Source: a virus. Taken from it: DNA of 61,975 nucleotides. The notes under the pieces were generated by a model. The model searched no databases, was not told the DNA's origin, and worked only from the letters and a program-made list of their open reading frames with translations. Where the stretch lies: the IMG/VR virus record IMGVR_UViG_3300037247_001905, positions 1 to 61,975 of that record; one strand, given 5' to 3'. Shown one piece after another: positions 9,182 to 55,646 of this stretch. The position numbers and the translations under genes were made by a program. Position 1 is the first letter of the stretch, and each line of letters starts with the position of its first letter.

Positions 9182-9201
9182 CAGACCAAAGGAGCCCCTC
9201 A

Positions 9202-9966: not shown

Positions 9967-9970
9967 CCCC

Positions 9971-9999: not shown

Positions 10000-10007
10000 G
10001 TCCTGAC

Positions 10008-10979: not shown

Positions 10980-10980
10980 C

Positions 10981-11915: not shown

Positions 11916-11925
11916 GAACACTGCC

Positions 11926-12458: not shown

Positions 12459-12473
12459 CCGAAAGGACCGTTG

Positions 12474-12914: not shown

Positions 12915-12950
12915 CCCCGCCAAAGAACACCCCAGCACAGGAAATAAGCC

Positions 12951-13157: not shown

Positions 13158-13162
13158 ACTGC

Positions 13163-13366: not shown

Positions 13367-13378
13367 AAAGCAGAACAA

Positions 13379-13803: not shown

Positions 13804-13818
13804 CCGATAAGACCGCAA

Positions 13819-16062
13819 ATGACAGACCCCCGCGTCATCTCGCTAGACATTGAAACCTACGGCGCCTGTAAACACAACACACGCGGCGACCCGCTCCCCG
13901 AACAGACCGTCTTCCACCCGCTCAAGGCGCTCGCCCATGACCGTGTCGCCCCGCGCGACCTCATTCTTACCTGTTCCATTACCATCCCCAAGGAAGATCC
14001 ACGATGCCACAACCTCAAATCGCCATCACACAATACAAAAGCGGAGACAACACCAAAACAGTTGTCACGCTCCCGACGGCGGAAGAAACCGCCGAATGGC
14101 TCGTTGCCGTCATCACAGCCACGGAATCTGCCTTGGAGCGCCAGCGCAATAGCGGCGATGGTACCGGGTGACACTTGGGTCTACGACTTCGCCAACCCTA
14201 CGCATCGCCGCATGCTGGCGCGCACCCTTTACTACGCCGATACCATCATTGGCAAGGACGTCGTCTTCGACATTATCCACCTCCGCCGGTTCCCCGCCCT
14301 GCGCGCCGCGCTCGACGGCTTCCGTCACACCCTCATCGACGTCTCGTGGCTCAACTTCCTTCAGTGTGAAGTTCGTCCCGAACGTGCCCTCAAGAACATT
14401 GGCCCTGTCCTTGGCAAGTACCGGTACGACCCCGAGGCCACGCTCGCCGGTGGGCACCGCTATCTTGCTCCCTTCGCCGTCGACGCCAACGGCAACTCCT
14501 GTATGCACTACAACGCCGAAGACACACACAACAGCATTCTTGCCGCCGCCGAGTTTGCCGCTCGCATCATTGACGAGTTCCCCGACACCGATAAGCTCTC
14601 TCCCTTTTGCCTTACCCACTTTTCCGAACTGCAATGGACCGCCGTGCGCATGTCCGAAGCCGGCGTTCCCGTCCACCGCGCATCGCTTGTGGCCCTCGAG
14701 CGATCTCTTACCGCCACCGTCGCCCGCTGTGACAAATCGCTTGCCGCCCAAGCCCTGCAAATGGAGGGCAGGGGCTCTGACTCCTCGCGGCGGGGCTTCA
14801 TTGAGAAAGCCCTTGACCACATCGACGAAACCATCGACGTTGCTGAAGCCATCGAACACGAATCGGTCTGGGTAGCAAAGCATTTGGTACACATCACCAA
14901 GACCGGCAAGGTTTCGATGGACGAAACGACGCGGGCCACCGCGCTCCACCTGCTTCCCAAAGACGACACGATCTACCGCCCCGCGCTTGAACTCTGGAAC
15001 GAACGCTCCGTAGCCAACACCCTTATCACCCGGCACACCTGCCCCCTGCTTCGTTACAAACGGCCATCCTCTCTTGGCAAGATGAAAGACAAGCCGCTTG
15101 CTTCCAAACTCGTGCCCTCGCCCCTACCTACCGCGCGCGCTCTCGGCATCGAACTTGCCTACCCCTCGTGGTTCGTTGTTCCCTCGGCGTTCAAGGACGA
15201 TCGCGGCGGGCCGGGCGGCCAGCGTCAAGGCCGGATGAGCGCATCAAGCCCGCCCGTCTCGCAGTGGAACGTCCCGCTCAAACGCTGCGTGCGCTCCCGC
15301 TTTTACAACGGTTCCATCGTTGCCGCAGACCTTTCCCAAATCGAACTTCGCGTTGCGGCCGTCTGTTCGGGCGAGCCCACCATGCTCGACAACTATGCGC
15401 ACGACGGCGACCTGCACGGCGACCGTGCCGTCTTCGTATTCGGCCCCGACGTTGTCAACGATCCCGCCTTTCACAGCGGCGACATGCAGACCGACCCTCG
15501 CCAGTGGGCCAAACGATTCAACTTCGAGGATCTCTACTGGGCGGGCGCCAAGAAGATGCAGGAGATGCTCCTGCTCGAATCTGGTGTCTTCCGCCCCATC
15601 GCCTTCTTCTACGAAGTCGTCGACTCTCGTTCCGAACTCCGGCCCACGCTCTACGCATGGCAGCGATCCCTCGTCGCAAAGGCCCACCGTGACGGCGTGC
15701 TCATCCTCCCGTTCACCGGCCACTCCCGCTCCCTCATCGCCGCCAAACCGAACGAGGCCGTCAACTTCCCCGTCCAGACAATCGCCGCCGTCACAATGGT
15801 TGCTGTCCAACGCGAACTCCACCGCCTTCTGCCCGCGCTCAACCACCCCGCACCACCCTGCTACCTCATTACCAACTGGTACGACGCCAACTACTTCGAC
15901 TGCGCCCCGTCTTTCCTCTCCGAACTCAAAGACGCCTTCGCCATTGCCATCCACCACGTTGCGCACACCGGTTACTGGGCGCAAATCTGTAGCTACTACG
16001 GCCACTACGTCCCTCTCAAGTACGAACTCAAGTCCGCCCCCACCGCCGACGCCGCCGCCTGA
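13819..16062 (+). CDS. Family A DNA polymerase with 3'-5' exonuclease domain, 747 aa
   Basis: Replicates the phage genome. Exonuclease: D10 and E12 in SLDIETYG, a second block GKDVVFDIIHL, and YNAED near residue 235. Polymerase motif A is VAADLSQIELR with D504. Motif B keeps the four key O-helix residues at the right spacing (R561, K565, F569, Y573) but the usual NFGxxYG is NFEDLYW. Motif C, normally HDE, is YDA with D689. Residues about 55-115 look unlike a protein domain (Ser/Pro/Lys/Arg-rich, almost no acidic residues) and coincide with a well-formed gene in another frame (14004-14171). No separate primase or RNA polymerase gene is seen beside it. Confidence 0.9.
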   Translation: MTDPRVISLDIETYGACKHNTRGDPLPEQTVFHPLKALAHDRVAPRDLILTCSITIPKEDPRCHNLKSPSHNTKAETTPKQLSRSRRRKKPPNGSLPSSQPRNLPWSASAIAAMVPGDTWVYDFANPTHRRMLARTLYYADTIIGKDVVFDIIHLRRFPALRAALDGFRHTLIDVSWLNFLQCEVRPERALKNIGPVLGKYRYDPEATLAGGHRYLAPFAVDANGNSCMHYNAEDTHNSILAAAEFAARIIDEFPDTDKLSPFCLTHFSELQWTAVRMSEAGVPVHRASLVALERSLTATVARCDKSLAAQALQMEGRGSDSSRRGFIEKALDHIDETIDVAEAIEHESVWVAKHLVHITKTGKVSMDETTRATALHLLPKDDTIYRPALELWNERSVANTLITRHTCPLLRYKRPSSLGKMKDKPLASKLVPSPLPTARALGIELAYPSWFVVPSAFKDDRGGPGGQRQGRMSASSPPVSQWNVPLKRCVRSRFYNGSIVAADLSQIELRVAAVCSGEPTMLDNYAHDGDLHGDRAVFVFGPDVVNDPAFHSGDMQTDPRQWAKRFNFEDLYWAGAKKMQEMLLLESGVFRPIAFFYEVVDSRSELRPTLYAWQRSLVAKAHRDGVLILPFTGHSRSLIAAKPNEAVNFPVQTIAAVTMVAVQRELHRLLPALNHPAPPCYLITNWYDANYFDCAPSFLSELKDAFAIAIHHVAHTGYWAQICSYYGHYVPLKYELKSAPTADAAA
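14004..14171 (+). CDS. Possible overprinted small protein, 55 aa
   Basis: Lies wholly inside the polymerase gene, in another frame. AAGGA stands 8 bases before the ATG. Its translation has balanced composition (ITQYKSGDNTKTVVTLP, then a helix with TAEETAEWLVAVITATES), whereas the polymerase frame over the same bases looks random. Either a genuine overlapping gene or an insertion that happened to keep the polymerase frame open. No family recognised. Confidence 0.5.
   Translation: MPQPQIAITQYKSGDNTKTVVTLPTAEETAEWLVAVITATESALERQRNSGDGTG
14743..14754 (+). repeat. Genome-wide 15-mer, forward copy
   Basis: CTTGCCGCCCAAGCC (14740-14754) in the polymerase gene, read as LAAQA between the exonuclease and palm regions. 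Confidence 0.85.
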
Positions 16063-17774: not shown

Positions 17775-19127
17775 ATGGCCGACAACACAGAACTCAATGT
17801 CGGCTCCGGCGGGGATGTGATCGCCACCGACGACATCGGGGGCGTCAAGCACCAGCGCGTCAAGGTCCAGCACGGGGTGGACGGCGCGGCGGACGACGTC
17901 TCGGCCAATAATCCGCTCCCGGTCGTCATGCCAGAGACCATGCGCGACGCCTTTGGAAGGCTCCGCACCTCCGAGCCCCACACGATCTTCGATTCCAAAC
18001 AGATATTCGACTCCCAACCGCTGTTCTGGGACGAATCGCTAGAGAGCGGCGCGGGGATCACGTCGGCACATTCAACCGCGCGGGCCTCAACAACCATCAC
18101 CTCGACGATCAGCACAGCCGGCGTCTACACCAGACAGACGTACGAGCGATTCAACTATCAGCCGGGCAAAAGCCAGATGATCCTGATGACCGGCATCATG
18201 GACCGCTTGGGAGGGGGTACTGGCGTCCAGCGACGTATCGGCCAGTTCGACGACGACAACGGGATCTTCTTTGAGGACGACGAAGGCACCTTCAAGGTCG
18301 TAGTTCGGTCCAGCACGAGCGGATCGCCCGTTGACACCAAGGTTGCTCAATCGAGCTTCAACCTCGATACACTTGACGGAACTGGTGCTTCGGGCGTCAC
18401 GATCGACCTGAGCAAAGCGCAGATATTTATCATTGATTACGAGTGGCTAGGCGTTGGTCGAGTCCGCTTGGGCTTAGCTGTTGGCGGCGAAATCATTTAC
18501 TGCCACGAGGTGCTCAACGCCAATGTGCTCGACGTGGTGTATATGTCGACGCCGAACAACCCTCTTCGGTATCAGATCGTCACTACCGGCAGTTCGCTGG
18601 CTTCTGAGCTTGAATGTAACTGTTCAACGGTAATCACTGAGGGCGGCGCGACGCATCTTGGCCAGCTTCGGTTCAAGTCGACCGCCGGGACACACGTCGA
18701 TGTTGCGGTCGAGAACACGATCTACGCAATCATCGGCATGCGGCTCAAGTCCACACACTTGGGCGAGACGATCGACATCCTCAAAAAGAGCATTGCCGAG
18801 CACGCCGGCAACAAGAACTATGAATGGCTGCTGATCTTCAACCCGACAGTAGCCGGGACGTTTACCTACTCGAACGAGACCAACTCGGCTGTGCAGACGG
18901 CGACCGGAGCGACGGCCAACACCGTGACGGGCGGGACGATCATTGACGGCGGTTTCGCGGCGTCCGCCAATAAGGGAGGGTCCGAGAGCAGCAACCTGGA
19001 AAACGCGATCCGGCTCGGGGCCGCGATCGACGGGACCGTGGACGAGATAGTGCTGTGCGTGCGTCCCGTAGGCGGGTCAAGCAATATCGACATTGAGGCT
19101 TCAATCGCGTGGCGGGAACGGCAATAG
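17775..19127 (+). CDS. Phage virion protein, tail-fibre-associated type, 450 aa
   Basis: N-terminus MADNTELNVGSGGDVIATDD is typical of a family of phage structural proteins, followed by NNPLPVVMPETMRDAFGRLR, FDSKQIFDSQPLFWDE, HSTARASTTITSTISTAGVY and RFNYQPGKSQMILMTG blocks I recognise from marine phage genomes. The rest is beta-rich with Gly/Thr/Ser. Probably part of an adhesin or fibre-like structure. It is away from the minus-strand morphogenesis operon, next to another large virion-like gene, so the two are likely expressed together. Confidence 0.65.
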   Translation: MADNTELNVGSGGDVIATDDIGGVKHQRVKVQHGVDGAADDVSANNPLPVVMPETMRDAFGRLRTSEPHTIFDSKQIFDSQPLFWDESLESGAGITSAHSTARASTTITSTISTAGVYTRQTYERFNYQPGKSQMILMTGIMDRLGGGTGVQRRIGQFDDDNGIFFEDDEGTFKVVVRSSTSGSPVDTKVAQSSFNLDTLDGTGASGVTIDLSKAQIFIIDYEWLGVGRVRLGLAVGGEIIYCHEVLNANVLDVVYMSTPNNPLRYQIVTTGSSLASELECNCSTVITEGGATHLGQLRFKSTAGTHVDVAVENTIYAIIGMRLKSTHLGETIDILKKSIAEHAGNKNYEWLLIFNPTVAGTFTYSNETNSAVQTATGATANTVTGGTIIDGGFAASANKGGSESSNLENAIRLGAAIDGTVDEIVLCVRPVGGSSNIDIEASIAWRERQ

Positions 19128-34642: not shown

Positions 34643-35308
34643 TTACGCCCCGCTTGACGATGCCTCTGACAACGATACCGAAGACGATGCCGCCGATGAT
34701 GATATTGACCCTGACGTAGTGGTTGCCGCCGACGAAGTAGTTACCGCCGACGAAGAAGAAATGGCGGAGCCGCCTGTTGCCGGGAACGTATTGGTGAACG
34801 CCGGGGGTGCGCTGGCGCCCGGACCGCTGCCGTCGCCGCCGGCGGGCAGCATTTCGGTCGTGCCGCCCGACAAGATTGACGGGGATTCCTGCCCGCTCAC
34901 CTCTGTCGTGTAGAGCATAAGCGTGTATTCGGCGCTGGCCAACGAGTCGTTTGCAATCAGCCACAGTGTTTCGCCGGGCTCGAGTACGGGGTTGCCGCCG
35001 TCGTTGTCGGCTTTCGCGATCGTAAAGTCGCGGCGACGCGCGGCGTTGTCGTCGAGCGCAATGGTGTTGCTGATGACAATACCGTTCGTTTCGGGCTCGG
35101 CATCGCCGGCCTGCCCAACATACAGGGTTGCCGCGCGGCTGGCTGGTTCGTTTGTCCCGTGCATCAGGTGCGCCCCGTCGATGCGGGTAGGCTTGCGTGC
35201 CGTCAGCAGGGGGATTGTCGTTCGCCCTGATCCCGCGAACGCAAACAGATGACGCATTGCGTCGCCGGGGTACATCTCAACAGGTGCGCCAGGATCTTGT
35301 TTCATCAC
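34643..35308 (-). CDS. Hypothetical virion protein with Ser/Thr-rich tail, 221 aa
   Basis: Residues 1-145 form a beta-rich domain (PLLTARKPTRIDGAHLMHG, ETLWLIANDSLASAEYTLML). The last 60 residues are Ala/Ser/Thr/Gly/Pro-rich and low in complexity, like the mucin-like tail at 46158. Likely a decoration or tail protein with a displayed flexible tail. ATGA overlap with the upstream gene. Confidence 0.6.
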   Translation of the reverse strand: MMKQDPGAPVEMYPGDAMRHLFAFAGSGRTTIPLLTARKPTRIDGAHLMHGTNEPASRAATLYVGQAGDAEPETNGIVISNTIALDDNAARRRDFTIAKADNDGGNPVLEPGETLWLIANDSLASAEYTLMLYTTEVSGQESPSILSGGTTEMLPAGGDGSGPGASAPPAFTNTFPATGGSAISSSSAVTTSSAATTTSGSISSSAASSSVSLSEASSSGA

Positions 35309-38406: not shown

Positions 38407-39666
38407 TTACTCCGGAAGGTTGAAGGCGGAGATGTTTCGGCCGCCCGGTGCGGTGGCCAGCGACAGGAGCGCCGCCAGCCCCTCGAACATCGAGATAAAC
38501 GGCGTGTTCAGCAGCATGTCCAGGTACGCCGTACGGCCCTGCAACTCCATCTGGGTTGCCTGCAACTCCGCCGATCCGGTGATGTCCGCCATCAGGCTTG
38601 CCAGATTCGTCCGCAACTCCTGAAAGGCCAGCCGCGTTTGAGCAATCGCTTGATCCCTCGCTAGATCGACCTCGGCTTCCGCTGCCCTGCCCGCCGTGCG
38701 CTGCTGCTCAACGCCCAGCAGCGTCGCGTCACGGGCGGCAGCGGCCCGTGTACCCTCGGCGACCAGCGCACCCCCGGCTTGGGTGGCGGCGACCTCCAGA
38801 CCCGCTCCCTGAAGGTTGACGTCCGCCAACGCCAACTCCGTCTGCGCAAGCGCTTGGTCGAGCCCGGCCCGAAACTTTGTGGCGTCCGCGCGCACCGCCG
38901 CCGTTGTCTGGGCAGTGATGAGACCTGTGTCAAACGCCAACTGCCGCGACGCCGCTCGCTTTTCAGAAGAGGTCATTGCCGTACCGTCTGGGTTGACGCC
39001 GGCCTGAATAAGCTGCTTCTGGCTCAGCGCCCGGCGCTGCATCCCCGCACTGATCGCGCTGATCGTCTCCCCTACGCGAGCGTTGAACCCCGTCGCCGTT
39101 TGCCGTGCGGTCTTGACCGCGCCGACCGCCGCCGAAATAGCATCGTCAATACGACCGCCCACGTTGCCAAGTTGTTCCAGCAGCCGGCTGATACGGGCGT
39201 CAGTTGTAGCAAACGCTCCCTGCGCCCCCGTCGCCACACGGTCCAGTCGTTCTTCGTCCACGAGGTCTGCCGGCCCTGTATCCAGCCGCGAGACGAGATC
39301 CGATTCGGTGGCCTCCAGTTCAAGATCGCGGCCCGCCAATAACTCGTTCGTGTCCCTTGCGGTTGCACGGATGTTTTCGCCGACGCCGCCCACGAAATCA
39401 CCGAACTCGGCGGTCGCTTCCTGAAACGGCGCCTGCACATTTTCGGAAAGGAAGTCGATGTCTTCGCCAAGCGCGACCGCAGCCTGATCGAACGCGGTGA
39501 TCGCGCTGGGGTCGCTGATCTGCGATATCGGCGTCCTCGTTGGAAACCCGCCGTGCGTCCCGAATGCAAAGTCGCCCTCCACATGAAGACCCTGCTGACG
39601 CGCGGCAGCCGCCCGAGACGACTGTGCCATTGACCGTGGCTTTGGAATCCCGCTGAAGCGACTCAC
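38407..39666 (-). CDS. Ala-rich helical internal virion protein, 419 aa
   Basis: Nearly all-helical with Ala, Glu, Arg and Gln making most of the sequence; N-terminal 60 residues are looser and Ser/Gly/His-rich. Between the tail nozzle and the 535-aa coiled-coil protein, as for internal core proteins. GTG start in a GTGA overlap with the nozzle gene. Confidence 0.65.
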   Translation of the reverse strand: MSRFSGIPKPRSMAQSSRAAAARQQGLHVEGDFAFGTHGGFPTRTPISQISDPSAITAFDQAAVALGEDIDFLSENVQAPFQEATAEFGDFVGGVGENIRATARDTNELLAGRDLELEATESDLVSRLDTGPADLVDEERLDRVATGAQGAFATTDARISRLLEQLGNVGGRIDDAISAAVGAVKTARQTATGFNARVGETISAISAGMQRRALSQKQLIQAGVNPDGTAMTSSEKRAASRQLAFDTGLITAQTTAAVRADATKFRAGLDQALAQTELALADVNLQGAGLEVAATQAGGALVAEGTRAAAARDATLLGVEQQRTAGRAAEAEVDLARDQAIAQTRLAFQELRTNLASLMADITGSAELQATQMELQGRTAYLDMLLNTPFISMFEGLAALLSLATAPGGRNISAFNLPE

Positions 39667-42566
39667 GCCAGTTCCTCCCGAGACAGTCCTCTATCAAGGA
39701 TCTTACCCTCAACCCGGACGCCCAACAACGTGTACCGCAGTTCGGGGCAGAACACCTCAATACCTGGGTGCAGCGAAGGCCCCTGGATCCCTCCTCGGCT
39801 GCCGTCACCCCCGCCAAAGCCCGCCGGGTACTCCTTGGCGATCGCATCGTCGCCCCCCACCGATTGCCAGTCCGCCGTGCGGTCGGGAGCGGCCGGGAAC
39901 ACCGATTCCTCGGCTTGGGCGGCATTCCCCTTGTAGACCAGCGCACGGTACCTCGCGTCGGTCGAAGAGGATGCAGCACCGTTGACGTCCGTTATAGCCG
40001 CCTTGATCGTGTTGACCTGCCGCTGGCGAAAGAACTCGTGCGACCCAAACTTGAAACCGTCCTCGGTCTGAAGCCCCACGCCCGCGCCCACCCACCGCTG
40101 ATGCACCGGGCTCAATCCGAGCCGTTGGCCGGCAACGCTTGCAAACTGTGCCGCGTCTTCTAGGGTCACCTCCTGAGCCGCGCCATTCGTTGCCGTGATC
40201 TTTGTGCGGTTGCCCGCGTCGTCGCCGTTCAGTACATAGATGTAGCACCCCTGAAGACGGTCGGTGTCGTTGAAGGCAAACGGCAACGTCAGTGTTGCAC
40301 CCGACGGGTTGCTTGCCTGCGTCCACCGTTTCGTCGCCGAGGTTGGCTGCATCAACGTCAGTTCGCTCTTTGTCTCCAGACGATCGTGCGCCCACACGCG
40401 CAACCGCTTTACATTAGCGATCGTGTATACCTCGAAGAAGACCGCACGCTTCTCCAGCGGATTCGTCTGTGCGTTGGGGGCTTGTGTTGGGTCGCGCGGC
40501 ATCACTCCATCGTCGACGTGACGGAACGGCAGATCGGCGAGCGCAGTGATCTTGCTCGTCTCGAACCACAGCAGTTGCGCCTCGCCCAACGACGTGTTCA
40601 GCACCCAGACCACGCCCACCGCGTCGTCGTACGCGCACTCCACGGACTCCAGACTTGCCGCCCAGACCGAGCGTATGACATAGTTGAGTGCGGCGAGGTC
40701 GGCAAGCTGCCCGCGTGCGTCGATTTCTTTGGCGCCCCGTCTTGTAATGCCGTAGCCGTGGCTGCCCATCTCGGCTGCGGCGCGGTCGTTGACCAGCCCG
40801 TACCCGCGATGGACCGGAAACCCCTTGAGCGACCGTGTCTCGCGGTGGAAGGCGTAAATGTTCTGCCCCGTCCAGCCCAAGATCGACGTGCCAATCTGCA
40901 AGAAGCGGAGCACCTCTTCGCTGGCGGCCTTCAGCGCGTACTTGTCTGCCGGGTCGAAGAGTTCAACGGCGGGCTCCAACAGGCTCGACCACCGCACGAT
41001 ACCGACGCCGGCCTCGTCCGGATCGAGCACGCCCGAGTTGCCGACCAGCATCGTGTTCTCACTGAACAGCAGGGCGCCGCCGGGAGGCATGTCCTCAAGG
41101 TACACGGGAATGTCAACCAGCGCGTTCTGCAACGGCAACTCATCCACCGCAGTCTGTACGAAGTAGCCTGCAACCCTCCACGGCGCTGCGGGCTGGCTGT
41201 CAATGTCATAATCTGCCAGCACAATCGTACCGTCGAGGTGCATGATTACGCTGTCGTTGTTGATGGTCAGCGTGCTCCGTCCACGGTACACCTGCATCGT
41301 GTCGTAGAGGCTGCTGTCGTAAATGACGTAGACCATCGGGAACGGTATGTTGAAGGTCAACCGGTGCATGTAATCGGACTGATCCGGGTCGTAGATATAG
41401 CTGAAGGAGCCAGAGCTTCCCGTCTTGGAAAGCTCCGCCGCTACCCGATTGCTTAGGGCGCTCTTGCGCCCGGTGCGGCTGTCGAGCAACCGGTACATGA
41501 ATATGCCACCCGGCGACGGCGTTGCGTCCGTGCGCAGTAGCGGCGCCGGTTCTTCGGCAGCGATGTCTCTTACGTCGCGGTTGTACCCGGCGCTCGTAAA
41601 CTCACCGGCGGGGCTCGGGAACGGATACACCGGTGTTTGTGGCGCACCGGCGGGGGCGGTGAGCAGGAACAGCGTGCGAAAGTTTGGGTCGCTGTGCGGG
41701 GGCGACGCCCACAACAGCCCGCCGCCCGGCAACCGCAGATCGCTCGGTCCGCGCAGACCAAGGGCGTAGTCCGGTCCCGCCGTGATGTTGCGCTCGCTCA
41801 AGTACGGGTTGGTCTCGTCAGCGGGACCGCCGCCCACTGTGCTGACGCCGGCCGTATTCCCAAACCCGCAGTATACGACGGTCGCTTCTGCGGGTTTGCT
41901 GGCCGGTGTGCTCTTGACAGGGATTGCTTCAACCATGTCGGGGTGTGGCGTCGCTGGCGCACTGTTCAGCGCACGCGAAGCAACGGCGTCCGTCCCGGCG
42001 GCCACCAGTTCCGGGGGCTCGCCCGGCCCGGTGTCTTCTATAACGATCAGATCAAAGACGCCCGGCGACGTCTCCGTAATGTAGAACATGAAGGTGGGCT
42101 TGCCGCGACGTCCGACATATACGAATCGACCTACGACCTCGACGCTCATCTCCTCAAAGCCAAACGGCTCGTCAGGGATGAGCCCCGTCACGAATCCATC
42201 GTCGAAGTCGTGTATCCACGTTGTTGAATCGCCAATCCGGTATTGGAGTCGGTAACGCGCGATCGTTTCCGCCGAGTTTGTGAACCGCATCAACACGCCA
42301 TAGGCGTAGGTTGTCGCGTCCACTCGAGACTCCCACATCCGCGCCCCGTGCAGGGTGCCCCCGCCGGCAAGTGTTGTGCTGTACCCGATGTCGACGTCGA
42401 AGTAGTGAATGAAGCCCGGAAACGGGCGCGTCCCGCCGTCGTACGAGCCGTCCGCCCCCAGCAACTCGGCGGCGGCGTTGGTCGCCGTGCCTGTGCGCGA
42501 CGTCTCGCGGTTCTGTGTGGCGAACGCGAGCGGATAATCCCATGCTGGACGGTCAATCGGCGGCAT
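39663..42566 (-). CDS. Tail nozzle / tail-tube B-like protein, 967 aa
   Basis: Beta-rich throughout, with repeated short strands and Gly/Pro turns like a propeller, and a region around 560-600 (LQIGTSILGWTGQNIYAF) that is typical of podovirus tail tubular protein B/nozzle proteins. It lies two small genes and the glycan cassette downstream of the adaptor, and next to the internal proteins, as the nozzle usually does. The head-tail machine would use it as the distal channel. Confidence 0.7.
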   Translation of the reverse strand: MPPIDRPAWDYPLAFATQNRETSRTGTATNAAAELLGADGSYDGGTRPFPGFIHYFDVDIGYSTTLAGGGTLHGARMWESRVDATTYAYGVLMRFTNSAETIARYRLQYRIGDSTTWIHDFDDGFVTGLIPDEPFGFEEMSVEVVGRFVYVGRRGKPTFMFYITETSPGVFDLIVIEDTGPGEPPELVAAGTDAVASRALNSAPATPHPDMVEAIPVKSTPASKPAEATVVYCGFGNTAGVSTVGGGPADETNPYLSERNITAGPDYALGLRGPSDLRLPGGGLLWASPPHSDPNFRTLFLLTAPAGAPQTPVYPFPSPAGEFTSAGYNRDVRDIAAEEPAPLLRTDATPSPGGIFMYRLLDSRTGRKSALSNRVAAELSKTGSSGSFSYIYDPDQSDYMHRLTFNIPFPMVYVIYDSSLYDTMQVYRGRSTLTINNDSVIMHLDGTIVLADYDIDSQPAAPWRVAGYFVQTAVDELPLQNALVDIPVYLEDMPPGGALLFSENTMLVGNSGVLDPDEAGVGIVRWSSLLEPAVELFDPADKYALKAASEEVLRFLQIGTSILGWTGQNIYAFHRETRSLKGFPVHRGYGLVNDRAAAEMGSHGYGITRRGAKEIDARGQLADLAALNYVIRSVWAASLESVECAYDDAVGVVWVLNTSLGEAQLLWFETSKITALADLPFRHVDDGVMPRDPTQAPNAQTNPLEKRAVFFEVYTIANVKRLRVWAHDRLETKSELTLMQPTSATKRWTQASNPSGATLTLPFAFNDTDRLQGCYIYVLNGDDAGNRTKITATNGAAQEVTLEDAAQFASVAGQRLGLSPVHQRWVGAGVGLQTEDGFKFGSHEFFRQRQVNTIKAAITDVNGAASSSTDARYRALVYKGNAAQAEESVFPAAPDRTADWQSVGGDDAIAKEYPAGFGGGDGSRGGIQGPSLHPGIEVFCPELRYTLLGVRVEGKILDRGLSREELA
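39912..39923 (-). repeat. Genome-wide 12-mer, reverse copy
   Basis: GGCTTGGGCGGC near the 3' end of the nozzle gene, read as AAQA. Confidence 0.85.
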
Positions 42567-42843
42567 CGTTCACAGGCAGCATAGCAGATGCGCTGAGCCT
42601 TGCGAGTTGCTCGTGGATCTCGGCGAGCGTTTCCCGCACACAGTAGACTATCTGCCCGTTGCCGCCCGTAAACGGCAGTTCGATCACCGCCCCGCACCGT
42701 TCCTCCGGCGGCCGTCTCTCTTCGGGCAGATCCTCCGGCGACCGCTTGGCGGCCTCCCCAATGAGCATCCCCTCTACCGGAGCCAGAAGGATCGTGCGGC
42801 CGTCCCACTTCGGATCCGAATGCACCTGTGTCAGTTTCAGCAT
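42553..42843 (-). CDS. Hypothetical protein, 96 aa
   Basis: ATGCTGA overlap with the upstream gene and 14-base overlap with the nozzle gene. Beta-rich N-terminus (KLTQVHSDPKWDGRTILLAP), acidic Pro/Glu/Arg centre, helical C-terminus. No family recognised. Confidence 0.6.
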   Translation of the reverse strand: MLKLTQVHSDPKWDGRTILLAPVEGMLIGEAAKRSPEDLPEERRPPEERCGAVIELPFTGGNGQIVYCVRETLAEIHEQLARLSASAMLPVNDAAD

Positions 42844-43142
42844 GGTAGTGTTCCCTTAGCGATTGCCACGAGCATGTCGGCGGCAACCTCGTACGATTTC
42901 TCAGCCGCTTTGTTGTGATGCTGAGATGCAAGCAACCCAGTTAGCGCCTGCCCCGCAAAACGATCGCGCCGCGCCGTGTGGATCATTGCGTCTATCTGTT
43001 CGTCACCACTGTTGGGGACACACAGATGGATTGCAGCGTACACGCGACGATCAAGCATGACGTGAGCAACTGTCTGCGTAAGCATCTGCCACGTCTTGCC
43101 GCCCTCGTCGTCATCTTTGGTCGTTTGGTCTTCTGCTGACAT
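42837..43142 (-). CDS. Hypothetical protein, 101 aa
   Basis: Acidic N-terminal 15 residues followed by an Ala/Leu/His-rich helical domain. It lies between the glycosyltransferase cassette and the nozzle genes. Function unknown; probably a small virion component. Confidence 0.6.
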   Translation of the reverse strand: MSAEDQTTKDDDEGGKTWQMLTQTVAHVMLDRRVYAAIHLCVPNSGDEQIDAMIHTARRDRFAGQALTGLLASQHHNKAAEKSYEVAADMLVAIAKGTLPC

Positions 43143-43164: not shown

Positions 43165-43839
43165 CTATTCTCTTGCCGCCCAAGCCGCGTCTGGTGTGTC
43201 GTAGTAGGGTACGTCGTGTGCGCGAGGGGTTTCGATGTTGTCGGAGTCGAACTTCGTAGAGCGCTCGACGGGGCGTGGTTCGTCGGGTGTGTAGACCATC
43301 ATCTGCGGGTGCAGCCCGGCGAGAAGCTGGTCGGCCCAATGCGCCCGTGTCTCGAGGGCGGCGAGACAACGGTCGTAGGCAACGTCGCGCACGGCGTAGG
43401 CCACCGTCCAATACATATAGGAGGGGCGGCAGCAGTAGCCGCGCACCAACCGCTTGTCGAGCATGATCTTGCCGCCGAGATAGAACATCTCCCAGTCGGA
43501 GGGCATATCCCGCAAGAACTGCGACGTCATCTCGTTGAAACGGTGGTTGAGTTTGGCGTCGTCCTCGAAGATCAGGACGCCTTTGTACCCCATGATCTTC
43601 GCCATTGAAATGACGGTGTGGTGTGACAGCAACGAGGCGAGCGCCCCGCCTTTTAGCGGGTAGACCAGCGGTGGACTCTCGGGCACCTTCTTCAGTGTGG
43701 CGCCATTGATCGCCTCGAACCGTGTCACCTCCAGGCCGCACCGCTCGAACTGTGGCCACATGAACGCCCACTTATCCTTGCGCCGTCGCAGGTTGATGCA
43801 GAACGCGGCGTCCACCGCTTCGAGCAGTTCCGGTATCAT
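43165..43839 (-). CDS. Glycosyltransferase family 25-like protein, 224 aa
   Basis: Transfers a sugar (galactose or glucose in this family) to a glycan or hydroxylysine. INLRRRKDK (15-23) is the N-terminal signature, AINGATLKK (43-51) the AIDG-like element, SHH (72-74) the SH motif, and FEDDAKL (91-97) the DxD-like metal site, then DWEMFYLGGK (115-124). These are all in the GT25 order. The protein ends in DAAWAARE, encoded on a 15-mer repeat copy. Translation is coupled to the upstream gene by ATGA. It belongs to a glycan cassette placed between adaptor and nozzle genes. Confidence 0.8.
   Translation of the reverse strand: MIPELLEAVDAAFCINLRRRKDKWAFMWPQFERCGLEVTRFEAINGATLKKVPESPPLVYPLKGGALASLLSHHTVISMAKIMGYKGVLIFEDDAKLNHRFNEMTSQFLRDMPSDWEMFYLGGKIMLDKRLVRGYCCRPSYMYWTVAYAVRDVAYDRCLAALETRAHWADQLLAGLHPQMMVYTPDEPRPVERSTKFDSDNIETPRAHDVPYYDTPDAAWAARE
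43175..43186 (+). repeat. Genome-wide 15-mer, forward copy
   Basis: CTTGCCGCCCAAGCC (43172-43186), read on the minus strand as AWAAR at the very C-terminus of the GT25-like protein. Confidence 0.85.
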
Positions 43840-44111
43840 TTGTTGTCTCTGTGCAAGGGGGCAGGTTTCTTGTAGAGACAGAACGTGTTGGGGCCGGTGC
43901 GCACACCGCATTCGATCTCGCCGACACGCAACGGCACATCCTTGCCTGTGGCGGCGATGAGTCTGTCGTGCAGCATCCAGTCAAGCGGAGGGCTGTCCTC
44001 CGTGTCGTCCCGCAGAATGCTGTAGCTAGCAGGCTGTGCGTGGGCGAGGTTGCGGATAACAACGACGCGTGCCTCGTTGCAAACGGCGATGACGTTGCCT
44101 TCCCAACTCAC
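43836..44111 (-). CDS. Hypothetical protein of the glycan cassette, 91 aa
   Basis: Start taken as GTG in a GTGA overlap with the upstream transferase gene; a GTG 13 codons earlier is possible. Begins VSWEGNVIAVCNEARVVVIR and ends in basic CLYKKP; two-layer alpha/beta look with no catalytic motif. Sandwiched between two sugar-transferase genes, so it may be an accessory glycan enzyme (inference). Confidence 0.55.
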   Translation of the reverse strand: MSWEGNVIAVCNEARVVVIRNLAHAQPASYSILRDDTEDSPPLDWMLHDRLIAATGKDVPLRVGEIECGVRTGPNTFCLYKKPAPLHRDNK

Positions 44112-45010
44112 TTTTCGTACCAGCCTTCCGTCGGAACCGACTTTTCGCACTCGGCCGCCGCCTTGTCCACCGCCTTCTTGAAGTCCATTGTCGGGAACGC
44201 CTTGAGCTTTGAACTGGGTGTTACGTTGATGATGTGAAACTTCATCTTTCGCCGGGTGATAACGCTCTGGATGTCGGCGAAGCGATCGTCAAGCGTGCCG
44301 TACCGTGTGTTGTTCGATTCGCGGGCGCCCTCCGACTTGCGTTCATCGAAGGCGTAGGCGCTGCCCTTAGCGGGCATGTTGAAGTCGGCGCCGACGAGAT
44401 AGACATTGCAGAACCCCAAGAAGTGTGCAAGCCGCAAGCAGCAGAGCATTGTCGAGCGGTTGCCCTTGACGCCTGAAGCATCGTGTTCGCCCTCGTCACA
44501 ACCCCACGCCACGCTCGTCTCTTCAAAGAACGTGTGCGGCTGAAAGTGCGTGTTGCGGCGGAAGAAATAGGTGGCGGGCATCTCACCGGTACGGAACGCC
44601 GACTCCCGCTTCTTGCCGTCCTGCATTACTCCCAGCTTGCTGTTGACGTGCGCGGCGGGCACGAACTTTATGATGCCGGGATCTTTCCAGCCGACATCGG
44701 CAAAACGATTAGGCGGGTCCGTGCAGCACCAGAAGTTCGGACGGTGTACCAACCACCCATTGTTCAGGCCCATCGTCATCAGACCGCGTCTACGCAACTG
44801 ATCGAGCGGTGTCTTTTTTAGCGACGGCCCGTTCAACAAGAGGAACAGGGATGAGCCGTGTCCCGACGTGTGCGCGTACACCCCGGAAAGAGGCGCGGGC
44901 GTGCCGTCGGCGCGAAACACCAGATTTGGGTAGAAGCGCTGGCCGCGCCACGGCGCAGAAATGTCAGATGGAGACGTGTGTCGGTTGCGGGGGAGTTCGG
45001 TGTCGATCAT
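44108..45010 (-). CDS. Maf/CST-like glycosyltransferase, 300 aa
   Basis: Residues 55-66 (LFLLLNGPSLKK) are the nucleotide-binding-type NGPSL element shared by CST-I/II sialyltransferases, MptE-like proteins and Maf flagellin glycosyltransferases, followed by GLMTMGLNNGW (76-86) and RPNFWCCTDPPNRF. Later YLVGADFNM (205-213) is a second alpha/beta strand. Family members transfer sialic, pseudaminic or similar acids, Maf onto Ser/Thr of protein. The residues 25-50 also share a YPxLVxR element with the Ser/Thr-rich protein at 46158. The donor sugar is unknown. Confidence 0.55.
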   Translation of the reverse strand: MIDTELPRNRHTSPSDISAPWRGQRFYPNLVFRADGTPAPLSGVYAHTSGHGSSLFLLLNGPSLKKTPLDQLRRRGLMTMGLNNGWLVHRPNFWCCTDPPNRFADVGWKDPGIIKFVPAAHVNSKLGVMQDGKKRESAFRTGEMPATYFFRRNTHFQPHTFFEETSVAWGCDEGEHDASGVKGNRSTMLCCLRLAHFLGFCNVYLVGADFNMPAKGSAYAFDERKSEGARESNNTRYGTLDDRFADIQSVITRRKMKFHIINVTPSSKLKAFPTMDFKKAVDKAAAECEKSVPTEGWYEK

Positions 45011-45597
45011 GGCGGGGGCCTTAGCAGTATAGTCGAGGTGCGCCTGTACCGTTCAAGCACCGTTGCGCCCTGCGCCACGAAGGCTTGAATCCACCAGTCC
45101 AGCGGGCGGACGGTCAGATGTAAGTTCTTGACCCCCATTGCTTTAGCCTTCGCCGTCGGCCTCTGCTTTGCGGGGCTCGTCGCTATCCGGCAGAACACAT
45201 GTTGCCGAGCAACCCGCAGGCATTGCCCAATGGCGCGGACCGCGTCTAACTGTTGCAGGTGCTCGAAGACGTCGGCGTGCATCACGACGTCGAAGCTCTT
45301 GTCGGGGAAGGGAAGGTTGCAGGCGCTCCCGACCACGCACGGCCGCCGCATCCGCAGCGTGCGTCCGATGACGACTGAAGACGCGTCCACGCCCATTGCA
45401 AAGCAGCCGTTTGCGTTTAGGTAGGCAACAGACGGGCCGTGCCCGCACCCGACGTCGAGTACGGTACAGCCCGGCCACCGCCTTGCTATCTCACGGGTAA
45501 CAGGCCACGCAAGATGTCCCGCGTGCATCTGTGCAGACGTGAAGTAGCCGTTGGTGTAGAGGTCGTCGTAGAGCGCGGTGTAGTTGATCTCGTTCAT
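45007..45597 (-). CDS. SAM-dependent methyltransferase, class I, 196 aa
   Basis: VLDVGCGHG (46-54) is the SAM-binding loop, GVDASSVVI (69-77) the acidic second motif, and MHADVFEHLQQLDAV the post-I motif of UbiE/COQ5-type methyltransferases. Members in glycan clusters O-methylate sugars, which fits this neighbourhood. ATGA overlaps on both sides couple it to the transferase genes. Confidence 0.85.
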   Translation of the reverse strand: MNEINYTALYDDLYTNGYFTSAQMHAGHLAWPVTREIARRWPGCTVLDVGCGHGPSVAYLNANGCFAMGVDASSVVIGRTLRMRRPCVVGSACNLPFPDKSFDVVMHADVFEHLQQLDAVRAIGQCLRVARQHVFCRIATSPAKQRPTAKAKAMGVKNLHLTVRPLDWWIQAFVAQGATVLERYRRTSTILLRPPP

Positions 45598-46148
45598 GGC
45601 GTCACCTGTGCAATATAGCCGGCTGCAACAACGTCCGCCAGCCATTCACGCTCCGCTGTTTCGGCGTGCTGTCGGTTTTCGGGGGCGTCCAGTTCCCAGT
45701 AGTGCTTGCCCATCTTGTCCATCTCTCCAATGCCGCAGAACCGCACGGGGCGTTCACAGCCCATGAGCAACGCCGCCCGCAACACAATAATGCCGAGAGA
45801 TGGCCCAACGCCGTCACCCCACAACGGGTGTTCGTCGCCGGCGATCCACTCCGCCGCGTACGGCACGAGAATCACGGGCAATGGCGTCCACAACCGGGAA
45901 TACTTTTCCAGATAACCGCTTGGGATGTGCGGCGGCACCCATAACCACACGCGGCAGCAATCGCCCGGCGGTTCTCTTTGGATATTGCCCCAGTTCACGA
46001 CCCAATCGGTTGTGCGACAACCAACATCGTTCTCGTGGCCGTCCGTTACGAAGTTGTTGAGCCGAACAACACGGTCGCACGCGTCAATCTGGGTTCCCAT
46101 CTCGGACCCTGCAAGAGACGGTGCGTTTCCAACAACGATCATGCTCAT
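45594..46148 (-). CDS. GT29-type sialyltransferase-like protein, 184 aa
   Basis: All three sialylmotifs of family GT29 can be read: L motif MIVVGNAPSLAGSEMGTQID with RLNNF and NDVGCRTTD (3-48), S motif GPSLGIIVLRAALLMGC then FCGIG (115-141), and the very-short motif HYWE (149-152) with the His that serves as catalytic base in this family. Family members use CMP-sialic acid. At 184 aa it is much shorter than animal enzymes, with no signal anchor. GT29 is rare outside eukaryotes and viruses, so substrate and donor are open. Next to it lies a mucin-like protein that could be the acceptor. Confidence 0.7.
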   Translation of the reverse strand: MSMIVVGNAPSLAGSEMGTQIDACDRVVRLNNFVTDGHENDVGCRTTDWVVNWGNIQREPPGDCCRVWLWVPPHIPSGYLEKYSRLWTPLPVILVPYAAEWIAGDEHPLWGDGVGPSLGIIVLRAALLMGCERPVRFCGIGEMDKMGKHYWELDAPENRQHAETAEREWLADVVAAGYIAQVTP

Positions 46149-46157
46149 GGGATTCCC

Positions 46158-46910
46158 TTATTCCGCAGTGCTGGTGGTCGTGTGAGATAGTACGGGTGTC
46201 CCCGTTGTACCGCCCGACGTCGTTGTCGACACTGTTGAAGGCGCAGTAGTAGACGCGGCGCTGCTTGTTGCAGTGGTCGATGCAGTTGAACTGCCGGTGC
46301 CCGACCCGCTGCCTGAACCCGAACCGGATCCCGAACCGCTCCCGCTGCCCGAACCGGACGCGCTGTCGGAACTGGTTGCTGTGCTGGTAGTAGTGCCTGG
46401 ACTCGAGCCGGTGCTTGAACCAACACTTGAAGCGGTACTAGAGGCGGTGCTCGAAGCAGTGCTTGAAGCAGTGCTGGAGACGCCGCTTGAACTGCCGGAC
46501 GCCGATCCGCTGCTGCCCGAACTGCCGCTTGCCGCCGACGATGAAGCAGAACTTGCGGAGGACGATGCCGTCGACGATGCCGTTGACGACGTCGTTGACG
46601 ATGTTGCAGTGCTCGAAGGCGGTACAGATGAAGAGGACGAACTGCCGCCGGGTGTAATCGTTGTGCTGGAGGGCAGCGGTGGTTCGGTGACGACAGGGGC
46701 GGGCGCAACGCCGTATGTCTCCTCAAAGAACACCTCGATGGGGAACGGCAGCCGTAACGCAAACGGGGGCTGCGCAAGCCGTCGACCAAACGCCGGGCCG
46801 GTCGTTCTTTGGTCACGCAACACCAACTTTGGGTACAACCCCTCGGAGAACCGCCGCATCAGATATTCGGACTGCCCGGCAACGAGACGATCTGGAAAGT
46901 CACGCGGCAC
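46158..46910 (-). CDS. Ser/Thr/Ala/Gly-rich mucin-like virion protein, 250 aa
   Basis: Residues 1-78 form a small folded domain (LYPKLVLRDQRTTGP, FPIEVFFEETYGV). Residues 81-250 consist almost only of Ser, Thr, Ala, Gly and Val in near-repeats such as STASSTASS and SGSGSG. Such tails are flexible and strongly O-glycosylated in eukaryotic and some bacterial proteins. Here the gene is immediately upstream of two transferase genes and a methyltransferase, so it is the natural acceptor (inference). The repeats make length variation likely. GTG start. Confidence 0.65.
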   Translation of the reverse strand: MPRDFPDRLVAGQSEYLMRRFSEGLYPKLVLRDQRTTGPAFGRRLAQPPFALRLPFPIEVFFEETYGVAPAPVVTEPPLPSSTTITPGGSSSSSSVPPSSTATSSTTSSTASSTASSSASSASSSAASGSSGSSGSASGSSSGVSSTASSTASSTASSTASSVGSSTGSSPGTTTSTATSSDSASGSGSGSGSGSGSGSGSGSGTGSSTASTTATSSAASTTAPSTVSTTTSGGTTGTPVLSHTTTSTAE

Positions 46911-46913
46911 CGA

Positions 46914-47831
46914 TTACCACCATCGTCCCATCGCCGGCTCCCACGCAATAAAGCCCGGGTCGTTGCGCATGGCGTTGTCGATTGTGTTCCGCTCGAACTG
47001 CGGGCCCACCCTGATAACGCGGTGCTTCAGCGTATTCAGCAGGGTGCGCCTCGCGTTGTGCTGTTTGGTCTCGAACGCCTGTAACGATATCCCGCTGAAC
47101 TTCCCGGCAATCGCCCGCGCCATTGCGATTTCATGGACAATCGCTTCCATCATTGCCTGCGAACCGCGCGGCGCAATCTCGTAGAGCGGAGCCGCCATTG
47201 GTGCCGGATCGAATGCGCTCTTTACGACTACAACACGAGTAACAGGATCGTAGGTGTCGATCACCCGTTCCTGGTGTACGCCACCTGTTGGAATCAGCCG
47301 GAGCACAGATCCGTTATACGCGCTCGGGCGCCGGTCGCGCATCCCCACCGCCGGGTCGTCTTCCAGTATCAACGAGGTCGTAGTTGCGCTTGCGCCTGCT
47401 CCCTCGTGCATCAGCATGTCGCCGGACGGCACATACAACAAGACAAGATCGCTGTCGTCTTTCTGGATGCGCGGGCGAAATACCAACTCGTTTTCTTCAA
47501 CGTACCAGTTCGGCCCTCTCGGGTGGAACTGTCCCCGAGGATAAGCATCGGCCAACAACTCCTTCTCGTCACTGAACTCAACAATGCCCCACACCTCGCC
47601 GACCATCGGCGGCAGCACGGCGCGCTCCTGCTCCTTCGTCAGCGTCAACGAGAGTGTCAGCAATACCGGTTGCGCTTCGGTCAACAGGATCTCGGACCAC
47701 AACTCGACGTACGCCGGGCCGATCAACTGCCGCACAATATAATCGGTGCTCAGCCGATCGCCGTCGCCGATGTCAAGCGCGTTGCGAACGCGCTCGGCAA
47801 TCGTTTCCAGAACCGAGCCAGAGCGGTGCAT
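46914..47831 (-). CDS. Head-tail adaptor / tail tube A-like protein, 305 aa
   Basis: Follows capsid and two small genes, as the adaptor (gp11/tail tubular protein A) does in podoviruses. N-terminal helical part (ETIAERVRNALDIG), central beta region, C-terminal helices (MMEAIVHEIAMARAIAGKF). No distinct motif; the call rests on size, order and fold-like pattern. Confidence 0.5.
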   Translation of the reverse strand: MHRSGSVLETIAERVRNALDIGDGDRLSTDYIVRQLIGPAYVELWSEILLTEAQPVLLTLSLTLTKEQERAVLPPMVGEVWGIVEFSDEKELLADAYPRGQFHPRGPNWYVEENELVFRPRIQKDDSDLVLLYVPSGDMLMHEGAGASATTTSLILEDDPAVGMRDRRPSAYNGSVLRLIPTGGVHQERVIDTYDPVTRVVVVKSAFDPAPMAAPLYEIAPRGSQAMMEAIVHEIAMARAIAGKFSGISLQAFETKQHNARRTLLNTLKHRVIRVGPQFERNTIDNAMRNDPGFIAWEPAMGRWW

Positions 47832-53258: not shown

Positions 53259-53628
53259 GATCGGCCTCCGCCCGCGCTTCTTCGGGGCTCAGCAGTTGCA
53301 TCCTATCACCAGACGGCTGCCGACGCGAAAGATCCTCCATGATCTCCGTCCGGATACGGTCAAGCCCCTCAGACAACGCCTTCGCGATCGCGGGCCGCAT
53401 CTCCTCCAGCACGGCCGCGCGGTCGGCCTCCGACGCCGGGACCAACCGGCCCTTCTCAACGTCGGCCGCCACCGCAACCAGCGTAACGTAGTGATCGAGC
53501 GGCACGACAATGTGGTCGAGTGACAGCCGCATCACCGTCGAACGCGGCTTGGGCGGCTCGCTCTCGGACTCCTCGCCCATGACGAGTTGACGGAGACGGG
53601 AGACTTCGGCCTGTTCGTCGGGGGTCAT
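53236..53628 (-). CDS. Hypothetical protein, 130 aa
   Basis: Acidic, helical, with a conserved-looking centre LSLDHIVVPLDHYVTLVAVAAD. Overlaps the portal gene by 23 bases and the terminase gene by ATGA. Possibly a portal- or terminase-associated factor; no family. Confidence 0.55.
   Translation of the reverse strand: MTPDEQAEVSRLRQLVMGEESESEPPKPRSTVMRLSLDHIVVPLDHYVTLVAVAADVEKGRLVPASEADRAAVLEEMRPAIAKALSEGLDRIRTEIMEDLSRRQPSGDRMQLLSPEEARAEADRDSTAQG
53546..53557 (-). repeat. Genome-wide 12-mer, reverse copy
   Basis: GGCTTGGGCGGC in the 130-aa gene, read on the minus strand as EPPKP. Confidence 0.85.
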
Positions 53629-55646
53629 GCGGCACCTCGAGGGTCTTTGGGCGGCGAGCGCCGTCGAGCGGAGATTACGGCGGCGTCGGCGGGGCTCATC
53701 GTAGCAAGCGCCAGCATAAGCTCGTCGTGGCTGAGCCGCTCGCCCTGCTTCAGTCGTTCAATGACGTTGGTCTCGTCCTCCTCGGCGGCATCCTGTTCAG
53801 AGGGCAATCCAGAGACGACAAAGCGATTCATCGAAAGAGTGTCCAGGAAGTCGTCCTTGTTGAGCCCAGTGTTGTCGCCGCCGAGATTCTTGAACCCCTG
53901 TATCTGCTCGGCAAGCCTTGGCCACACCGTGTCATGCGCGTAGCGATACATCCACGGGAACTTGTAGAGCCCGAACTGCATCCTGAAGGTAATCGCGCCA
54001 GCAATCTTTGCGCACTTGGACGTGCGCCCGGGGTTGAAGCCCATGATTTCAGGCAGGTGTTCGCCCTCAAACTCTTTGACGGCCCGCGTGCGCACGACCT
54101 CAAGAAGATCCTGCACAACACCGATGCCGTCCTCGATCGCCTCTACGCCAATAACAGCAGCGCGCCAGAGCACCGCCATTGATATTGCATTGGTCACGAG
54201 ATCACTCTGCTCGGCCTGCGCACCCCACAACCCCAGGCTAAACAGTTCGTTGAAGTCTGTAAGCGCCATGCAATGCGCAACCTTCCAGTCCGAATGGGAG
54301 CCGCTCGTTTTTGAGGTATCACATGTAAGGAAGCGGGGAAAACGCTCGCAGAACTCCGTCAGCGGCATCTTGACAAGTTGCGGTATCTGGGCCTTGCCAA
54401 GCGGCTGCCGCCACCAGCAGATCAGGGTGGGCGACTTCCACGGCGCGTTGAACGCATCGGCGTCGTTTCCCTCGAACCAGTAGCCGTGCTTGTCCTTTTC
54501 GAGCACACCAAACACGGTGCCCGCTGCGCCACCGGGGTTGCCCAGCATCTCTGCCTCAAACGGCGCGTCTCCCATCAGCAGGCGCACCTCGTCAAGCGTC
54601 TTGGTATCGTCGAACAGCCCCAACTCGGATTTCTCAGCGGTGTCCGCAGGCCAACGATGCGGCCAGCACGACACCAGTTTGGAGGTGCCGTCTTCCTGCT
54701 TCACATGTGAAGCCGCCGGCTGGTGAATGCGGAACCACGCGTCAAAGGTCTTATCAACGGCAACCTCGATCTCTTTGCCTGTCTCCGGATCGGTAGCGGT
54801 CGTTGTCTCCATGATGTGCCAGAGGTACGCCTGCTGGTCGATGTATGTGCCAACGTAACTGCATCGCGTGCCCTGCCCCGTAATCATCGGCAACAACTGG
54901 TACCGCATCATGCGGTCAAAGTTCTCGCGCATCTGTTCGCGTGACGACGTCGCCGTGGGATCCCACTCGGCGTCGTCGATCACGATTTCAACGGGGCGCT
55001 TGCCCCGCTTGCGGGCCTCGGCCGACGTACAGAAAAGCCACGACCGATTCGTCAACACGAAGTCGGACATCCCGCTGCGCACCTCGCCGCGCTTGCCGAC
55101 AATCGCGCCGCCGTACTCCGGCGCCCAATCCGCCAACACCCGCTCGTTGTTGGTCAACAGATATTTGGTGTCGTCACCGAAGACCGTCGAAAGATCCTGC
55201 GTCGACGAGCAATAGAGAAATGAATAGCCGGGGTGCGACACCATCTGAAACGGCACCGACTTCTTCCAGTAGAACGTCTTGGCGCCGCCCCGGGGCGCAA
55301 CAGCCGCAACATAGTGGTAGATGACGCGTGCAACCGTGATATGGTCGTGAAACTTCGGCCGGGGGATCGCCTGCCCCTCAAAGAACATGGGGTTGAAGTC
55401 GCCGTCCGCCGTCAGGTAGTACCGCTCCCACAGGTCCAGACCGGCAACGAGCGCGTCGGCCTTGCGCCACCACATCGCCCGCTTGACTTTGGGCGCATCG
55501 CTCGCCTGCGGCGTGTGCAGCGTCCACTGCCGACAGGCGTTTACACGGGCGGCACGACGGCCCTCGTTCGTCAGGCCGTCGTAGTCAGCCGGGAGGGGAT
55601 AGTTCGCATTCCCCTCATCGTAATGAGGAACCTGTTTGACGATCAT
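53625..55646 (-). CDS. Terminase large subunit, 673 aa
   Basis: Motor that packages DNA into the head. Walker A APRGGAKT (117-124), Walker B VEIVIDDAEWD (219-229) with the carboxylates at its end, and a nuclease domain with LTCDTSKTSGSHSD (440-453), where D443 and D453 are metal ligands, and a third acidic site near 631-637 (NKDDFLD). Overlaps the upstream gene (ATGA) and the downstream one. The DNA ends made by it decide whether the 228-bp repeat is real. Confidence 0.85.
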   Translation of the reverse strand: MIVKQVPHYDEGNANYPLPADYDGLTNEGRRAARVNACRQWTLHTPQASDAPKVKRAMWWRKADALVAGLDLWERYYLTADGDFNPMFFEGQAIPRPKFHDHITVARVIYHYVAAVAPRGGAKTFYWKKSVPFQMVSHPGYSFLYCSSTQDLSTVFGDDTKYLLTNNERVLADWAPEYGGAIVGKRGEVRSGMSDFVLTNRSWLFCTSAEARKRGKRPVEIVIDDAEWDPTATSSREQMRENFDRMMRYQLLPMITGQGTRCSYVGTYIDQQAYLWHIMETTTATDPETGKEIEVAVDKTFDAWFRIHQPAASHVKQEDGTSKLVSCWPHRWPADTAEKSELGLFDDTKTLDEVRLLMGDAPFEAEMLGNPGGAAGTVFGVLEKDKHGYWFEGNDADAFNAPWKSPTLICWWRQPLGKAQIPQLVKMPLTEFCERFPRFLTCDTSKTSGSHSDWKVAHCMALTDFNELFSLGLWGAQAEQSDLVTNAISMAVLWRAAVIGVEAIEDGIGVVQDLLEVVRTRAVKEFEGEHLPEIMGFNPGRTSKCAKIAGAITFRMQFGLYKFPWMYRYAHDTVWPRLAEQIQGFKNLGGDNTGLNKDDFLDTLSMNRFVVSGLPSEQDAAEEDETNVIERLKQGERLSHDELMLALATMSPADAAVISARRRSPPKDPRGAA

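Follow-up and report, generated by a model that had tools for sequence, protein, structure and literature searches.

Can a phage carry the means to glycosylate one of its own proteins? The question is raised by a cassette of six genes on the minus strand of the IMG/VR virus record IMGVR_UViG_3300037247_001905, a whole virus record of 61,975 bases, called the window here. In the order proposed by an initial annotation, the cassette encodes a mucin-like protein, a GT29 glycosyltransferase, a class I S-adenosylmethionine (SAM) methyltransferase, a GT42/CST-II-like transferase, a small protein and a GT25 glycosyltransferase, and all six open reading frames (ORFs) are present (Table 1). On balance, the cassette appears to be a self-contained phage module that decorates the adjacent mucin-like protein with a methylated acidic sugar. 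The same pairing of protein and enzyme is seen again in phages that are unrelated, which makes a dedicated system for coating a phage's own protein probable.

The proposed 250-aa protein with a 170-residue Ser/Thr/Ala/Gly tail was borne out by the ORF, its composition and its serine codons. Ser, Thr, Ala and Gly account for 154 residues (91%) of the tail compared to 31% in the remaining proteome, and the Ser/Thr content peaks at 72% over 60 aa (12% for the remaining proteome), the highest of any protein in the genome; the runner-up, at 50%, is a presumed virion protein with a Ser/Thr/Ala-rich C-terminus (34643-35305). Tail serines are encoded by 46 TCN and 27 AGY codons, two classes that are not interconverted via a single synonymous step, and the codon class switches at 16 of the 29 Ser-Ser neighbours. 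This switching points to selection for serine, not to DNA slippage, and the tail is a genuine coding stretch rather than the product of a wrong frame. The product thus has the long Ser/Thr-rich low-complexity domain of a mucin-like protein; it had no family match in Pfam, PHROGs or a further profile search.

The following gene encodes a member of CAZy family GT29 with putative activity, as had been suggested. It matched Pfam PF00777 with 62.4 bits against a cut-off of 23 (E=5.9e-17) and contains all four sialylmotifs, L (VVGN..L..S..G..ID..D.VVR.N), S (PSLG), III (HYWE) and VS (HAETAE), all of them conserved in an alignment with phage homologues, where H161 and E166 of the VS motif are retained in at least 90% of 48 sequences. 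Matches by sequence in the PDB were ST3Gal1, ST6GalNAc2, ST6Gal1 and ST8Sia3. For the AlphaFold model (predicted local distance difference test, pLDDT, 82), all 30 Foldseek PDB matches at E<=1e-3 were GT29 sialyltransferases, the fold match spanning the whole chain with query-normalised template-modelling (TM) scores of 0.57-0.73, and comparison with a viral structure library returned GT29s of giant viruses, herpesviruses, poxviruses and a few Caudovirales. The enzyme shares motifs L, S, III and VS and the fold along its chain with the known GT29 sialyltransferases of animals, plants (RCKT1) and a few bacteria, but it is shorter (184 aa), lacks a membrane anchor, is coupled to a methyltransferase and is phage-borne.

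The SAM methyltransferase call was confirmed (PF08241, E=1.2e-15), and other phages carry fusions of GT29 with this kind of enzyme. Likewise, the GT25 assignment holds, PF01755 being matched with 38.9 bits against a cut-off of 24 (E=1.1e-9), which places the protein in CAZy GT25 by Pfam; its start, previously put at 43911, is most likely 43839 (224 aa). Its closest PDB match was procollagen galactosyltransferase 1 (E=2e-9), a protein O-glycosyltransferase, and it also matched phrog_2835 'glucosyltransferase'. The label Maf/CST-like for the 44108-45010 protein stands in part. Alone, the protein gave a weak match (phrog_4603, E=2.3e-7), and a profile of five phage homologues matched Campylobacter CST-II (GT42) along most of its length (E=1.5e-6), which makes it GT42-like, but PF06002 (CST-I) reached 11.3 bits, under the cut-off of 25. 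An alignment by eye placed no His at the position of the CST-II base His188, and the AlphaFold model, built from two sequences, had a pLDDT of 28. A tblastn search of this protein against phage records gave no match; homologues co-occur with GT29 in L194 and L058 (L numbers denote surveyed loci). In the GC-rich phage L194, the stretch 9371-15408 (minus strand) encodes three GT29s together with two GT42-like proteins and a methyltransferase, a content near that of the window cassette, with no evident Ser/Thr partner at this locus. For the 91-aa protein, no relatives were found in Pfam, PHROGs or further searches.

Start-stop overlaps had been said to link most of the genes. Four successive 4-nt overlaps (45594-45597, 45007-45010, 44108-44111 and 43836-43839) indeed join the five enzyme-side genes, for which gene calls and a codon-usage model agreed, whereas a 9-nt gap (46149-46157) separates the upstream Ser/Thr gene from GT29.

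A degenerate motif-L pattern was found in at least 120 IMG/VR stretches and once in the window, where none was expected, and a profile located a GT29 ORF in 124 of the 131 loci surveyed; a stricter pattern returned 23 viral stretches and 31 stretches in bacterial genomes. Judged from sequence, GT29, known mainly from eukaryotes and from few, mainly alphaproteobacterial, bacteria (PMC5811610), is common in phages. The METHYLTRANSFERASE coupling was found as methyltransferase-first fusions to GT29 in L054, L073 and L092/L110. GT29-first fusions to a methyltransferase occur in L060 and L120, a Methyltransf_24 domain is fused ahead of GT29 in L068, and the GT29 of L160 has, by eye, a similar methyltransferase-type N-terminal domain; in L019, L141 and the window the two are neighbouring genes. 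That the fusions come in both orders and involve two methyltransferase families argues strongly that both enzymes work in one pathway. Other fusions join GT29 to GT8 (L020, L058) or GT4 (L095, L111, L166), and L047 encodes a CMP (cytidine monophosphate)-sugar cytidylyltransferase-GT29 fusion in one phage protein (6530-7972, plus strand). One locus of L003 (LR756508.1, a 484-kb phage) groups four GT29 paralogues with genes for GT25, NeuB and nucleotide sugars.

To score neighbours of GT29, a low-complexity gene was defined by a 40-residue stretch with an entropy below 2.0 bits, and a limit of 2.2 bits was also tried. Among the matches listed, to which all counts for phage partners refer, such genes made up 6/197 adjacent to phage GT29, 1/159 two genes away and 0/787 further away. 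Comparing adjacent genes with the rest, Fisher tests gave p=1.5e-4 at 2.0 bits and p=1.1e-4 at 2.2 bits, values that are descriptive only, because the measure and thresholds were picked with the first cases already known and an earlier, looser Ser/Thr count showed no enrichment (4/663 near, 4/719 far). The threshold of that count let in ordinary proteins, hence its null result, and the entropy measure was substituted after the fact. None of 31 bacterial GT29 loci had a partner below 2.2 bits, whereas 6 phages had one among the roughly 19 distinct phages, counted by hand, that share the motif type (p=0.0017).

The low-complexity partners are mostly Ser/Thr-rich. Those rich in Ser/Thr occur in about six lineages, the window included, and 1- or 4-nt overlaps were seen in five of this set (window, L135, L138, L140, L149, L160, L087). 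Overlaps of 4 nt involve an S/P/T-rich protein and a methyltransferase-GT29 fusion (L135), PPSSSV repeats (L160) and PSSTPPP repeats in a gene cut by the contig end (L138). Overlaps of 1 nt involve TTTTTTVA repeats beside a GT29-methyltransferase, a further methyltransferase and a GT2 (L140), and a T/P-rich protein with an adjoining GT-D-fold enzyme (L149); the PSPSP protein of L087 lies two genes from GT29. The remaining partners are (Pro-His)n proteins with almost no Ser/Thr (L137/L157 and L141) and a protein with collagen-like GPD repeats (L068).

Several of these phages are unrelated outside the GT29 region. L135, L137, L141 and L160 are related phages with common structural genes, L138, L140 and L149 have only the GT29 region in common with them, and the window has no structural gene detectably common to any of the seven. 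Profile comparison of the window with the L137/L141 candidates for capsid and adaptor was negative, and the window phage is therefore not detectably related to these two. In the GT29 tree, the partnered sequences clustered yet needed six changes, and the window sits on a long branch of unsure placement; the partnered GT29s may have a single origin. On the gene order in metagenomic phages, proposed earlier as a check: by position and size, L141 has capsid-like, adaptor-like, structural, low-complexity, GT29 and methyltransferase genes in window-like order, and other phages have the GT29/low-complexity pairing.

Two of the partner loci deserve separate description. The GT2 of L140, beside the poly-Thr protein, had polypeptide N-acetylgalactosaminyltransferases (ppGalNAc-Ts) as its best PDB matches (6e-7), and this 44.6-kb phage contig has at 8617-12483 (minus strand) a complete-looking mucin-type set of ppGalNAc-T-like GT2, methyltransferase, GT29-methyltransferase fusion and poly-Thr protein, the latter of 413 aa with a short, possibly coiled-coil C-terminal segment. 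The (Pro-His)n repeat proteins adjoin GT29 at about 12900-13500 in L137 and at 964-1278 in L141, where, in the frame of GT29, the repeat DNA forms an open S/P/A-rich stretch continuing into the GT29 gene. Candidate S/P/A-rich partner tails in L073/L077 were rejected, since the gene's own frame encodes (Pro-His)n and the S/P/A reading reflects synonymous sites in another frame.

If the cassette works as we propose, the acceptor would be the mucin-like protein, with its long disordered Ser/Thr tail and its place in the presumed particle block. First sugars would be put onto Ser/Thr by GT25, and possibly also by the GT42-like enzyme; GT29 would then add an acidic sugar from a CMP-activated host donor, CMP-Kdo (3-deoxy-D-manno-octulosonic acid) or a nonulosonic acid, and the methyltransferase would O-methylate this sugar as a cap. 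The phage protein would thereby gain a charged, methylated brush, which could shield it or tune adsorption. A CMP donor is supported indirectly by the cytidylyltransferase-GT29 fusion of L047, and large GT29 phages often have NeuB and/or a CMP-sugar synthetase. The plant GT29 RCKT1 is reported to be the CMP-Kdo transferase of rhamnogalacturonan II (RG-II; PMC11288761), and bacterial GT29s are mainly alphaproteobacterial (PMC5811610). CMP-Kdo is generally supplied by Gram-negative hosts that make lipopolysaccharide (LPS). Host CMP-Kdo would therefore be the simplest donor; the donor is probably host CMP-Kdo or a nonulosonate.

Several observations weigh against decoration of the partner protein. 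Ser/Thr is not universal in partners, given the (Pro-His)n tails of L137/L157 and L141 and the collagen-like protein of L068. A low-complexity neighbour is missing from more than 90% of the phage GT29s sampled, many of which belong to large loci for sugar synthesis, and an initiating transferase is missing from several minimal cassettes. No NeuB and no CMP-sugar synthetase were found in the window phage, so that a donor must be host-derived, and because the PDB has few GT25s, resemblance to the collagen enzyme says little about whether GT25 targets proteins. The earlier claim that the transferases act on the adjacent protein draws independent support from the coupled pairing in unrelated phages and from GT29-methyltransferase fusions in both orders, and is tempered by the (Pro-His)n partners and the many partnerless GT29s.

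An unlikely alternative is that the enzymes alter LPS or capsule on the host surface, either late in infection or to exclude superinfecting phages, and have nothing to do with the Ser/Thr neighbour. Such a role would fit the classical function of GT25 in lipooligosaccharide synthesis, the presence of GT29s in polysaccharide loci of bacteria, and the GT4-GT29 fusions of L095, L111 and L166, which lie in apparent rhizobial prophages. It leaves unexplained, however, the coupled low-complexity pairing in unrelated phages, absent beside bacterial GT29s (0/31), and the window genes lie within a presumed structural block, with no integrase recognised among the proteins scanned. Somewhat less probable still is that the tail is an unglycosylated flexible or rod-like spacer, linked to GT29 through a tail-gene hotspot that collects both kinds of gene. 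Tails do vary in their make-up, being (PH)n, GPD collagen or S/T/P, and even the related L160 and L157, whose partners have homologous N-terminal parts, differ in this. Yet most partners are coupled directly by 1 or 4 nt, the pairing recurs in about six lineages, the clustering is at distance 1 and not at 3 or more, and L140 has the poly-Thr protein beside a ppGalNAc-T-like enzyme, all of which speaks against a mere spacer. Modification of DNA bases against restriction (hypermodification plus sugar) is highly improbable: phage glycosyltransferases are often DNA glucosyltransferases, and GT25 has the phrog_2835 match, but no thymidylate synthase, hydroxymethylase or other base-modification enzyme was found among 51 further window proteins scanned, sialyltransferase-type enzymes act on glycans with CMP sugars, and the cassette lies among presumed structural genes.

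The initial annotation knew of no described phage system of this make-up. Put so broadly this does not hold, since virion glycosylation by phage glycosyltransferases is known for the mycobacteriophages Che8, Corndog and Myrna (Freeman et al. 2023, as cited in PMC11256854 and PMC12363180). As those citing accounts describe it, these phages likewise use their own transferases on their own particle proteins, but the acceptors are capsid and tail-tube proteins, whereas the window has a dedicated mucin-like protein as proposed acceptor and couples GT29, GT42-like, GT25 and methyltransferase genes to it. A cassette of this make-up was not found in the open-access literature and is apparently undescribed. 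Mucin-type O-glycosylation (ppGalNAc-T with ST3Gal/ST6GalNAc) similarly pairs a Ser/Thr-rich disordered candidate acceptor with GT29, and L140 adds the ppGalNAc-T-like GT2; the window system differs in being cytoplasmic, prokaryotic/viral and without a GT27-like enzyme, its chemistry being putative. Tentatively, and as a possibility we hold at less than even confidence, unrelated tailed phages might share a widespread and so far unrecognised 'mucin' system: a dedicated low-complexity acceptor would be decorated by a GT29-methyltransferase, occasionally with a ppGalNAc-T-like or collagen-galactosyltransferase-like initiator, giving the virion a brush of methylated, acidic O-glycans, a counterpart of mucin-type sialylation in prokaryotic viruses.

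Phage particle glycosylation has been shown in few systems so far, and because the recurring pairing names both enzyme and likely acceptor, the question is directly testable by co-expression. Among the matches listed, phage GT29s occur in several fusions with methyltransferases and in one with a CMP-sugar synthetase. They are relevant to how sialyltransferases arose, to the surface chemistry of phages and to immune recognition, and they offer compact, soluble enzymes of the sialyltransferase fold.

Table 1 Features of the window around the cassette and in the presumed particle block.
Feature	Coordinates	Strand	Evidence and remarks
Terminase large subunit	53625-55646	minus	Sole firm label in presumed particle block
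305-aa gene upstream of cassette	46914..47831	minus	ORF; no family match
Mucin-like protein, 250 aa	46158..46910	minus	ORF; N-terminal part of ~80 aa, Ser/Thr/Ala/Gly tail of ~170 aa; proposed acceptor
GT29 glycosyltransferase, 184 aa	45594..46148	minus	PF00777, sialylmotifs, AlphaFold/Foldseek
Class I SAM methyltransferase, 196 aa	45007..45597	minus	PF08241
GT42/CST-II-like transferase (MptE/CST fold group), 300 aa	44108..45010	minus	phrog_4603, CST-II profile match
Small protein, 91 aa	43836..44111	minus	ORF, 4-nt overlap at each end; no match in family searches
GT25 glycosyltransferase, 224 aa	43165..43839	minus	PF01755; candidate initiating or extending transferase
Two small genes between GT25 and 967-aa gene	42837-43142, 42553-42843		Downstream of the cassette
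967-aa gene downstream of cassette	39663..42566	minus	ORF; no confident match
Second Ser/Thr/Ala-tailed protein, 220 aa	34643..35305	minus	Composition scan, last ~55 residues; possible second acceptor

The window phage is podovirus-like, the spacing of its long minus-strand proteins resembling a podovirus structural block. This block holds the terminase large subunit and long proteins, most without a family match; the labels 'adaptor' (46914-47831) and 'nozzle' (39663-42566), given earlier to the genes flanking the cassette, were unconfirmed by Pfam, PHROGs, NCBIfam and PDB sequence searches. Single-protein searches of viral contigs with GT29, a 531-aa capsid candidate and the terminase returned no real close relatives, L002 being a chance match, and neither the capsid candidate nor the 967-aa protein had a tblastn match in phage records. 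No terminal repeats were found in the record. The plus strand carries early and replication genes (DNA polymerase A, a RecD-like helicase, uracil-DNA glycosylase), one early protein being a Cpn10/GroES-like co-chaperonin (Pfam E=4.4e-16). Among these genes, on the strand opposite to the structural block, 17775-19127 encodes a protein matching a virion structural family (phrog_1645, E=2.5e-88), with relatives in L046, L071 and L055.

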